Origin: Citricoccus sp. K5
GTDB taxonomy: Bacteria > Actinomycetota > Actinomycetes > Actinomycetales > Micrococcaceae
Assembly (NCBI RefSeq): GCF_902506195.1
Contig: NZ_LR732817.1
Coordinates: 3,005,407 to 3,069,406, forward strand
DNA: 64,000 bases
Reading direction: 5' to 3'
Shown: in pieces, positions 4,112-59,317 of the stretch
Layout: each line of letters starts with the position of its first letter
Position numbering within the stretch: position 1 is the first letter of the stretch
Notes under the pieces: generated by a model
What the model was told of the DNA's origin: nothing
Seen by the model: the letters and a program-made list of their open reading frames with translations, nothing else
Database searches by the model: none
Made by a program: the position numbers and the translations under genes

Positions 4112-5856
4112 TCCGCCGGGACCACCGCCACGTCACCCTCCCGCCGGGAGTCCTGGGCCCCGGTGATGGTGCCGGTCTCGTAGTCGATCTCCAGCGCCTG
4201 CACCGAGCCGAAGACGGCGTCGGCCCGCTCGGTCACGCGCGGCTGCCACCCACGCTGGCGGATCAGGGCGGCCACGTCCTGCGCCGGCTGCTCCTCCAGG
4301 GAGAGCACACCGTCCTGGAGATAGTGGCGCGGTGAGTCGACCGCCTCCTGCAGCGGCGCCTCCTGGAGGGCCCAGGGCACCATGACGGTGGCGAGGATCG
4401 AGGGGATGACCTGCCCGCCCGGCGATCCCAGGCCCATGACCACGCGGCCCTCGGAGTCCAGGACCAGGCTGGGCGCCGACCAGCTGACGGACTTGCGCCC
4501 CGGCTCCGGCTGGTTGGCGGGGGTGTCCAAGGACTCGAACCGGGACAGCTGGTTGTTGAGGAAGAACCCTCCCACGGTGCTGCTCTCCGCACCGCCCCAG
4601 AAGCTGGTGATCGTGTTCGTCATGGACACGGTCAGTCCCTCGTCGTCCACCACGGTCAGGTGGGTGGTGTTCCCCGCCTCAGCGGGCTCAGCGGGCTCAG
4701 CGGGCTCAGCGGCTGAGGAGAGCGCCGGCGCCACCTCGGTCCGGGCCAGCTCGGCGTTGGCCTCCGGATCCGTGAGCCGGTCCACGGGGACGTCCACGAA
4801 CGCCGGGTCCCCGAAGGACTCCGTCACGCTGGCATCGGCCACCCGCCAGGCCGCGGCCATGGCGTCCACATACTCCGCGGACCCGGGCTCGGCCTCCGCC
4901 ACCCCGAGCGCCTCGGCGACCTGCAGGAATTGCACGACGGCGGCACCGGGCAGCGGCGGTGCGGCCGAGACGTACTCGTAGTCGCCGACCGGGCCGCTGA
5001 CCGGTTCGGTGGTGTCCGTCTCATAGGCGGCGAGGGACTCGGCATCGAGTCCGTCCACGGCGGTGAGGTCCTCCGCCAGGCTTCCGGTGTAGAGGGCGTC
5101 CGGGCCCTCCTCGGCCAGCGTCTCCATGGTGGCCGCCAACTCTGCCTGGACCAGGGTCTCTCCCTCCCCCAGCGGAGCGGCGCCTCCCGAGCCCTCCGCG
5201 CCCTCACCGGCTGACCCGGAGTGGAACGCGGCGATCCCCTCGATGGCGCCGGGCCCGTAGTCGGAGCGCATCCGCTGGGCCAGCAGGGGCGAGACCGGAA
5301 ACCCCTCCTCGGCCAGCTCGATGGCGGGGGCCAGCAACTCGGACCACTCCAGGGAGCCGTGTTCGGCGTGCAGGGTGGCCATGCCGTCCACGAAGCCCGG
5401 GACACCGGTGCCGGAGGCCGGGATGTCCCCGTCCTGGGCCACGGTCTCGCGGTAGTCATAGGCCAGCGGGTCCCCGTCTCCGCGGGCGACCAGGGCCGAG
5501 CCACCTCCCCCGATGCCCGAGGCGAAGGGTTCCACCACGGCCACGGCGAAGGCGGTGGCGACGGCGGCATCGGCGGCGTTGCCGCCCCGTTCCAGAATCT
5601 CGGTCCCGACGTCCACCGCCGCCGGGTGTCCGGCGGCGACCGCCTGCTCCTGGAGCGCTGATGCGGAGGCGGACGGGGCCGGCGTCGTTGCGGGGGTGCC
5701 GTTCGAGGGACCGGAGACTGAGGAGGACGGAGAGCCGGAGGCCGGGTCCGATGGTTCCTCCGGGGCCGGGGAGGCGCATCCGGTCAGGGCCAGCAGCACG
5801 GCCGAGAGGACGGCCACGCAGGACAGGGCGGGGACGGAGGTGCGGGTCCGCTGCAT
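4108..5856 (-). CDS. ggt: Gamma-glutamyltransferase, secreted lipoprotein
   Basis: Ntn-hydrolase that cleaves or transfers the gamma-glutamyl group of glutathione and related peptides outside the membrane. It is a 582-residue proenzyme. The N-terminus is a lipoprotein signal ending in the lipobox LALTGC, followed by a Ser/Pro/Thr-rich linker. The large subunit contains GGNAADAAVA and the substrate-binding DYRETVA. Autocleavage is expected before the Thr of NTTHLTVVD, which starts the small subunit; GSPGGQVIPS follows. The pair of oxyanion-hole serines seen in E. coli GGT (SSMSP) reads SWSAP here. A short (EPA)n repeat lies just before the cleavage site. ATG 5856 has a GAGGAA site 7 nt upstream. 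Confidence 0.92.
   Translation of the reverse strand: MQRTRTSVPALSCVAVLSAVLLALTGCASPAPEEPSDPASGSPSSSVSGPSNGTPATTPAPSASASALQEQAVAAGHPAAVDVGTEILERGGNAADAAVATAFAVAVVEPFASGIGGGGSALVARGDGDPLAYDYRETVAQDGDIPASGTGVPGFVDGMATLHAEHGSLEWSELLAPAIELAEEGFPVSPLLAQRMRSDYGPGAIEGIAAFHSGSAGEGAEGSGGAAPLGEGETLVQAELAATMETLAEEGPDALYTGSLAEDLTAVDGLDAESLAAYETDTTEPVSGPVGDYEYVSAAPPLPGAAVVQFLQVAEALGVAEAEPGSAEYVDAMAAAWRVADASVTESFGDPAFVDVPVDRLTDPEANAELARTEVAPALSSAAEPAEPAEPAEAGNTTHLTVVDDEGLTVSMTNTITSFWGGAESSTVGGFFLNNQLSRFESLDTPANQPEPGRKSVSWSAPSLVLDSEGRVVMGLGSPGGQVIPSILATVMVPWALQEAPLQEAVDSPRHYLQDGVLSLEEQPAQDVAALIRQRGWQPRVTERADAVFGSVQALEIDYETGTITGAQDSRREGDVAVVPAD
4681..4707. repeat. 9-bp tandem repeat inside ggt
   Basis: Three perfect copies of AGCGGGCTC, encoding Glu-Pro-Ala on the minus strand, immediately before the autoprocessing site of the gamma-glutamyltransferase. 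Probably a slippage-prone linker. Confidence 0.8.
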
Positions 5857-33855: not shown

Positions 33856-33945
33856 GTCAGCCGGACCGGTCAGGCGGAGTCAGCCGGACCGGTCAGGCGG
33901 AGTCAGCCGGAGCGGTCAGCCGGAGCCAGCCGGAGCGGTTGCCGG
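33856..33945. repeat. 23-bp tandem repeat, about four copies
   Basis: Copies at 33856-33878 and 33879-33901 are identical; 33902-33924 differs at two bases; 33925-33945 is a degraded fourth. Each unit starts GTCAGCCGGA and includes CGGTCA. There are no spacers, so it is not a CRISPR. It lies just downstream of panC and upstream of the SRPBCC gene on the minus strand. Confidence 0.9.
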
Positions 33946-57591: not shown

Positions 57592-57800
57592 GGCTCCCCT
57601 TGACTCTTCGGCTGCTGCGGGCCGGACCGGAAACTGGACGAGCCAGTCGCCGGCAGGCGGAATGTTGAGCCCCAGTCTACGGAACAGATCCGGCACCGTC
57701 CCGGCCGAGGCCGATCCCTATCGTGTCCCCGGTCGCATGCAGGATGATCGAGACCGCAGGGGCCGGACCGTCCGACACTGGCGGCAACGGGAGGAATCTG

Positions 57801-58877
57801 ATGACGATGTTCACGGCGACCACGCCTCGCGATATCGACGCTGCGCGAGGGTATCGACGCCACTGCGCCGTGCCCCCGTATCTGCTGGAGCACTTGTCCC
57901 GGCACCAGCCGCCGGCCGCCGTCGCGAGAACCCTGGAACTGGATGAACAGGTCCGCGAGCGGCGCCACCATGGGGCACTGCCGGAGCGCGCCCTGGTGGC
58001 CCCGGCGGGCACCCTGGATCGCACGATCTCCGATGCGGAGAACACCGAGGAGCTCCCCGGCAGGACCGTGCGGGAGGAGGGACAGCCACCGGTGGAGGAC
58101 GTGTCCGTCAACGAGGCCTATGACGGGATCGGCTCCGTGCACGCGTTCCTCGAGGAGGTCTATCGGCGGTCCTCCCTGGACGGGACCGGACTGGGACTGC
58201 TCGCGACCGTCCACTACGGCCAGCGCTATGACAACGCGTTCTGGGACGGAACCCAGATGGTGTTCGGGGACGGCGACGGTGAAATCTTCACGGGGTTCAC
58301 GCCCTCGGTGTCCGTGATCGCCCACGAGCTCGCGCACGGGCTGATGCAGTATTCCACGGACCTGCTCTACGAAGGCCAGTCCGGTGCCCTGAACGAGTCC
58401 TTCTCCGACGTGCTCGGCGCCCTGGTGGACCAGTACGCGCAGGGCCAGACGGCCGAGCAGGCCAGTTGGCTGATCGGTTCGGAGATCTTCGGCGAGGGCG
58501 TCCAGGCTGACGGGCTGCGGTCCATGGCCGCGCCGGGGACCGCCTATGACGACCCGCGGATGGGGCGGGATCCGCAGCCGGCACACATGGACGACTACGT
58601 GGAGACCCAGGCGGACTACGGCGGGGTGCACCTGAACTCCGGCATCCCCAACAAGGCCTTCCACCTCGCGGCGATGGCCCTCGGCGGGCACGCCTGGGAG
58701 CGGGCAGGGCAGGCCTGGTTCGACGTCATCACGGGCGAGTCACTGCCGCGTGATGCCGACTTCGCCGGTTTCGCGGAGGCCACCGAGCTGGCGGCCCAAG
58801 AACGATTCGACGAGGCCGTGGCCACGACGATCCGGGACGCCTGGGAGCAGGTCGGGGTTCTGGCCGCCCGATCCTGA
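57801..58877 (+). CDS. Protealysin-type M4 metalloprotease
   Basis: A thermolysin-family zinc protease without signal peptide: 358 residues, starting at ATG 57801 with GGGAGGAA upstream. A short propeptide carries the PPYLL motif (residues 25-29) found in protealysins. The zinc site HELAH is at 175-179 with the third ligand Glu 199 in ALNESFSD, and the catalytic His is expected in GGVHLNSGIPNKA. Lack of a secretion signal suggests a cytoplasmic role. The next gene is an emfourin-like inhibitor, 44 nt downstream. Confidence 0.93.
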   Translation: MTMFTATTPRDIDAARGYRRHCAVPPYLLEHLSRHQPPAAVARTLELDEQVRERRHHGALPERALVAPAGTLDRTISDAENTEELPGRTVREEGQPPVEDVSVNEAYDGIGSVHAFLEEVYRRSSLDGTGLGLLATVHYGQRYDNAFWDGTQMVFGDGDGEIFTGFTPSVSVIAHELAHGLMQYSTDLLYEGQSGALNESFSDVLGALVDQYAQGQTAEQASWLIGSEIFGEGVQADGLRSMAAPGTAYDDPRMGRDPQPAHMDDYVETQADYGGVHLNSGIPNKAFHLAAMALGGHAWERAGQAWFDVITGESLPRDADFAGFAEATELAAQERFDEAVATTIRDAWEQVGVLAARS

Positions 58878-58909
58878 CTCGGAACAACCGGCACCGAACA
58901 CCCCCTGCG

Positions 58910-58915
58910 TAGGCT
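58910..58915 (+). promoter_or_regulatory. -10 element TAGGCT before emfourin-like gene
   Basis: TAGGCT ends 6 nt before ATG 58922, so the inhibitor may have its own leaderless promoter in addition to read-through from the protease gene. Confidence 0.4.
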
Positions 58916-58921
58916 TGCACC

Positions 58922-59317
58922 ATGGATGGCACTGCTGATCGCCCCGCGGGGCCACTGGGCCCTCCCGGAGAACCTGGAGCACCTGGAGCACCTGGAGCAC
59001 CTCAGCAAGGTTCGGACACCGCACTGTTCGAGGTCACGGTGGAGCGCTCCGGCGGGATCGCCGGGATGGTGCGCCGGTGGTCCGCCCCGGTTCCCGACGA
59101 CGGCGGCCCGGCCGCGCGTGCGGCGCACCGGATCGCGGACCTGACCACAGCAGAGTGCAGCACACAGAGGCCGGGCACAGACGGTCCGGGCCGGGTGCGG
59201 GACGGCTTCGTCTGGGCCGTGACCTGTGGGGAAGGCTCTTTGCAGTGCGACGAGGAGGGCCGGCGTCGTGATCCCGAGGTGGATGCCCTCATCTCCGTGG
59301 TGACCGCGCCAGAGTAG
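58922..59317 (+). CDS. Emfourin-like protealysin inhibitor with collagen-like N-terminus
   Basis: A 131-residue protein. Residues about 33-130 match emfourin-type inhibitors (FEVTVERSGGIAGMVRRWSA), which block protealysins and are encoded beside them. Residues 10-27 are six Gly-X-Y triplets (GPLGPPGEPGAPGAPGAP) encoded partly by perfect 9-bp repeats with unusual GGA, GCA, CCT codons. The N-terminal extension is absent from the founding inhibitor as I recall it. Expected to bind the M4 enzyme encoded upstream in the cytoplasm. Confidence 0.8.
   Translation: MDGTADRPAGPLGPPGEPGAPGAPGAPQQGSDTALFEVTVERSGGIAGMVRRWSAPVPDDGGPAARAAHRIADLTTAECSTQRPGTDGPGRVRDGFVWAVTCGEGSLQCDEEGRRRDPEVDALISVVTAPE
58976..59002 (+). 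repeat. 9-bp tandem repeat (Gly-Ala-Pro) in emfourin-like gene
   Basis: Three perfect copies of GGAGCACCT, preceded by one near-copy GGAGAACCT. All third positions are A or T, against the GC-rich codon use of the region. Confidence 0.9.

Follow-up and report, generated by a model that had tools for sequence, protein, structure and literature searches.

The system closest to the gene pair described here is the pln-m4in operon of Serratia proteamaculans (represented by the structures 2vqx and 6zyg), in which the gene for a protealysin-type precursor with a PPL propeptide motif is followed, on the same strand, by the gene for the small protein emfourin, and in which the two genes have been reported to constitute one operon (PMC9505478). 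Work in Serratia established that the inhibitor binds the protease in a 1:1 ratio at its active site and that loss of the inhibitor gene harms the cell (PMC9505478), and further that the protease precursor stays within the cell and is activated after lysis (PMC6778150). The same two genes, in the same order, occur in Arthrobacter, Cryobacterium, Rhodococcus, Streptomyces and other actinobacteria; in addition, genera of the Intrasporangiaceae and a few other hosts encode the same protease and inhibitor domains within a single chain, so that a 1:1 stoichiometry is built in.

A pair of this kind was examined in Citricoccus sp. K5, within a stretch of 64,000 nucleotides of contig NZ_LR732817.1 (the ‘window’, whose positions are used throughout; all features lie on the forward strand). 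Its gene order and PPL-motif precursor correspond to those of Serratia, whereas the sequence of its inhibitor is far from that of Serratia emfourin, carries an N-terminal extension of approximately 34 residues, and is preceded by a probable promoter of its own. With the other actinobacterial pairs the Citricoccus inhibitor shares a conserved R-[ST]-G-G hairpin and a ...D.F.W/Y... block; most of those proteins, however, have the core itself (M-K-V-x-V-x-R-S-G-G) at their N-terminus and no such extension, and their C-terminal helix is unlike that of the Citricoccus inhibitor. Unlike the Citricoccus pair, the natural fusions consist of one polypeptide with a Gly/Pro/Ala-rich linker.

The first gene (57801-58877) encodes a protealysin-like M4 metalloprotease precursor of 358 residues, and is preceded by a Shine-Dalgarno sequence, GGGAGGA (57789-57795), with the ATG located 5 nt downstream. 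The motifs described in the original prediction were all recovered: the propeptide motif PPYLL at 57873-57887, HELAH (the HExxH motif) at 58323-58337, and NESFSD (the NExxSD motif bearing the third ligand) at 58392-58409, to which may be added the catalytic histidine block GGVH at 58620-58631. Both the M4 and M4_C models of Pfam match the protein far above their cut-offs, and a search of solved structures returned the protealysin precursor 2vqx (E 6.4e-110, residues 22-353) as a far better match than any other M4 structure, in an alignment that spans the propeptide and places PPYLL opposite the IPPYML of 2vqx. The PLN_propep model of Pfam gave no match to the protease at E values up to 1. By reading of its N-terminus, MTMFTATTPRDIDAARGYRRHCAVPPYLL, which is without a hydrophobic stretch, no export signal is seen, in agreement with the earlier claim that a signal peptide is absent, and the protease would on that reading be an intracellular enzyme. 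Its gene displays a third-codon-position GC content of 0.88 and, in the near Citricoccus clade, evidence of purifying selection (dN/dS 0.15-0.23).

The second gene (58922-59317) begins 44 nt after the first on the same strand, as had been noted, and encodes a protein of 131 residues with the block SGGIAGMVRRW at 59048-59080. The Pfam Emfourin model (PF20242) matches this protein across model positions 1-87 of 91 with an E value of 3.8e-4, at a score (21.2 bits) that lies under the curated cut-off of 27, and an independent profile was therefore built from 47 small proteins adjoining related actinobacterial M4 genes, with Citricoccus left out. That profile scored the inhibitor at 40.3 bits (E 1.7e-10), as compared to 7.0 for the best of 1000 shuffled cores. 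Since proteins of the same set clear the Pfam cut-off easily (the emfourin domain of a Knoellia fusion, L084, scores 63.3 bits), the link between the Citricoccus protein and the curated family is well founded, and the comparison of sequences assigns the second protein to the emfourin family, as originally proposed. The gene is also under purifying selection in the near Citricoccus clade (dN/dS 0.39-0.53), with a third-position GC content of 0.85 in its core.

The AlphaFold2 model of that core (residues 35-128; 59024-59305) predicts the order strand-strand-helix-strand-strand-helix, with pLDDT values of approximately 82-93 in the core blocks except for a loop at residues 78-92, and with 52 residues at 90 or above. 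Superposition of the model on emfourin 6zyg gave a Z score of 4.4 (rmsd 4.0 over 60 aligned residues), a value compatible with the emfourin fold but equalled by unrelated chains. A Foldseek search of the PDB returned no match at E values up to 0.001, with 6zyg at rank 31; direct searches of solved structures with the inhibitor sequence, and likewise with profile A1, returned none. A profile comparison with a 6zyg fragment was very weak (13 aligned columns, 5% probability) and scored above all 60 shuffles. Kinship with SSI-type inhibitors (Z 3.5-3.7 in the fold list) was also considered and set aside, the resemblance being taken as a common arrangement only. By analogy, the neighbouring emfourin probably inhibits the protease, and tight inhibition in Citricoccus is proposed because of the published work in Serratia.

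The association of the two genes extends well beyond the window. Among eight Citricoccus genomes compared, of which the nearest named loci are those of Citricoccus sp. WCRC_4 and CH26A, the M4 and emfourin genes are adjacent in six species, separated by 44-49 or by 9 nt. Both genes are absent from a seventh genome (G003), and the eighth (G006) is without the protease and keeps only the C-terminal half of an emfourin (L008:1371-1695), with the same pgm gene approximately 1.2 kb away, a remnant consistent with loss of the protease and later decay of the orphaned inhibitor. Across 80 related protease loci the actinobacterial profile detects an emfourin at 76, at a median of 64 nt after the M4 match; a 77th, from Pantoea, has an emfourin of the Serratia type, which escaped the profile and was identified by visual comparison with the 6zyg sequence. 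A count based on motif expressions (48 of 80) is an undercount that misses fusions and motif variants. From the opposite direction, when the top 30 Pfam Emfourin matches of the family were inspected, 29 adjoined an M4 gene. The pairing is thus near-strict from both sides, and far beyond chance.

At 13 of the 80 loci (L028, L030, L036, L038, L040, L043, L046, L050, L052, L064, L075, L084 and L089) the two proteins are encoded by a single reading frame, with an emfourin domain at the C-terminus, intact catalytic residues, and both domains above their Pfam cut-offs; the hosts are Janibacter, Pedococcus, Humibacillus, Terrabacter, Intrasporangium, Phycicoccus, Knoellia, a Micrococcales MAG and Microbacterium barkeri. 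An order-wide sample contained fusions at 14 of 30 loci (L138, L140-L143, L148-L152, L154-L156 and L158), 12 of them in one family, and fusion is apparently the rule in the genera of the Intrasporangiaceae. At six loci (L129-L134), all from one family of the order, with genomes of 8-9 Mb, the gene order is inverted, such that emfourin comes first and the protease start lies inside or beside the end of the emfourin gene. The fusions constitute independent support for a physical partnership, and together with the inverted order they point to a direct one. A single-chain model of the Knoellia fusion, computed with 13 sequences, was poor in its protease half. A partial search of the literature found no description of such fusions; given that scope, and because the combination of domains is evident from Pfam, they are not claimed as a discovery. 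More tentatively, and with somewhat less than even odds, the actinobacterial loci may form a graded series, from separately promoted inhibitors through inverted gene order to one-chain proteases with a C-terminal inhibitor, in which the fused enzymes would be latent or self-inhibited and perhaps freed by cleavage of the linker.

The original prediction had also raised the possibility that the inhibitor gene possesses its own promoter, and that suggestion is now well supported by comparison of the upstream regions. The sequence TAGGCT (58910-58915), a probable -10 box, is found exactly 6 nt upstream of the inhibitor start codon in every one of the six Citricoccus species that have an intact pair; in three of these the intergenic distance is reduced to 9 nt, and the protease reading frame ends on the TAG of the box. 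A TANNNT box is the signature of leaderless actinobacterial genes, in which its first T lies approximately 12 nt upstream of the start codon (PMC3160421); the arrangement TAGGCT-N6-ATG conforms to that rule, and no Shine-Dalgarno sequence precedes the inhibitor gene, unlike the protease gene. Across the genome, the distance from TAGGCT to a following ATG is 6 nt in 37 of 75 instances and 7 nt in 12, as compared to approximately 2.4 at each other spacing. A standard consensus scan, which misses promoters without a -35 box, detected no sigma-70-type promoter for the inhibitor gene. Beyond Citricoccus, 17 emfourin genes carry a TANNNT box 6-7 nt upstream of their ATG, close to the proportion expected were one in five actinobacterial genes leaderless. 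The promoter is probably a leaderless one, through which the cell can probably produce inhibitor without relying on expression of the protease.

The alternative, in which the inhibitor is produced from the protease transcript only and TAGGCT is coincidental or inherited by descent, is favoured by the shared strand and the short gaps, and by the stop codon embedded in the box in three species, which accounts in part for its conservation there. Such an explanation is nevertheless considered unlikely: neither the box nor its spacing varies across two clades that have diverged by approximately 0.7 synonymous changes per site in the protease gene, whereas the sequence of the 6-nt spacer does differ; the genome-wide excess at 6 nt and the missing Shine-Dalgarno sequence also argue against it. 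Furthermore, co-transcription and an internal promoter can coexist.

A second alternative concerns the purpose of the pair rather than its expression. A toxin-immunity function, in which the protease would be delivered to or released onto competitors and emfourin would protect the producer and its kin, has been proposed for Serratia on the grounds that protealysin cleaves FtsZ and RecA and that the inhibitor is encoded in the same operon (PMC9505478), and a separately promoted inhibitor would suit such a role. In Citricoccus, however, the protease is without an export signal, inspection of the sequence shows housekeeping genes (serS, pheA, an amidase gene and pgm) as its neighbours, with no secretion system among them, and the fusion of inhibitor to protease observed in related organisms makes little sense against an incoming enzyme. 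This function is accordingly judged quite improbable for the Citricoccus pair, and a latent internal protease held by its neighbour is the preferred reading.

The collagen-like tail attributed to the inhibitor in the original prediction fared less well. Six Gly-X-Y triplets are present as described (GPL GPP GEP GAP GAP GAP, 58949-59002), and since they occupy residues 10-27 the ‘tail’ is in fact an N-terminal extension. They are partly encoded by a tandem array of four 9-bp copies (58967-59002), consisting of one GGAGAACCT followed by three perfect GGAGCACCT, and their AT-ending codons are reflected in a third-position GC content of 0.22, versus 0.85-0.88 around them. That low value may be a side effect of the repeat expansion, or may have been selected to keep the 5' end of a leaderless transcript open. 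Chance rates were taken from the window and from related loci: an equally good four-copy 9-bp array lies at 4678-4712, and runs of at least six Gly-X-Y triplets occur twice in the six frames of the window and six times among 715,000 residues of six-frame translation from the related loci. By itself, the run is thus within what chance would produce. A separate tandem array, the strongest in the window, lies at 33856-33939 (period 23, 3.7 copies, 95% matches).

Comparison between species, with one genome for each, separates the variable length of the extension from its triplet pattern. The extension reads MDGTADRPAGPLGPPGEPGAPGAPGAPQQGSDTAL in the window, MDGTADRPPGPLRAPGEPGVPAAPQQGSGTAL in G007 and MDGRADRPPESPGAPGEPQRGSDTAR in G001, the latter two being the closest Citricoccus species, and comprises 35, 32 and 26 residues, respectively. 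Proline at every third residue is kept in both relatives and glycine is not; in G002, G004 and G005 a 16-residue extension lacks the Gly-X-Y pattern altogether, such that every other Citricoccus either interrupts the repeat or lacks it. The length differences of exactly 9 and 27 bp fit the gain or loss of the 9-bp unit, and the proposal of a repeat-variable length thus held between species, in the absence of any conservation of the pattern itself. AlphaFold2 predicts no secondary structure for the extension, for which the best reading is a flexible spacer prone to slippage and resembling the Gly/Pro/Ala-rich linkers of the fusions; the triplet run is, by this comparison, a species-specific DNA-repeat expansion and no conserved part of the inhibitor. 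That the run acts as a working collagen-like segment, rendering the inhibitor trimeric or tethering it, is highly implausible, since the uninterrupted, proline-rich triplets in its favour are outweighed by their interruption or loss in related species, their predicted lack of structure and the chance occurrence of such runs in window DNA. Six triplets are in any case short for a triple helix. A second low-complexity extension among emfourins, unrelated to that of Citricoccus, is found in Herbiconiux daphne (L062:3560-3930), where more than 100 N-terminal residues are rich in Gly, Ser and Asp.

The reading that best accommodates these observations, to which a probability of roughly 0.8 is assigned, is that of a latent internal protease and a neighbouring emfourin with its own, probably leaderless, promoter, together forming an actinobacterial protealysin/emfourin pair. 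The protease would be synthesised inside the cell in precursor form, bearing a PPL-type propeptide, and emfourin would probably bind the active-site region and keep any matured enzyme off for as long as the cell is intact; proteolysis would begin once the inhibitor is outrun, for example upon cell lysis or release. The separate promoter, close to the protease gene's end and in some species overlapping it, would allow inhibitor to be made without protease as a standing safeguard, and the Gly-X-Y extension would serve as a flexible spacer whose length shifts by 9-bp slippage. For inhibition, promoter use and release on lysis in Citricoccus, we infer the course of events from the genes and from Serratia.

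The Citricoccus pair is a widespread actinobacterial version of the known protealysin/emfourin system, such that a lock worked out in one Serratia species proves to be widespread in Actinobacteria. The collagen-like tail is removed as a tempting false lead, and the fused and separately promoted forms of the pair offer a means of deciding between emfourin as a safety lock, as an immunity protein, or as both.
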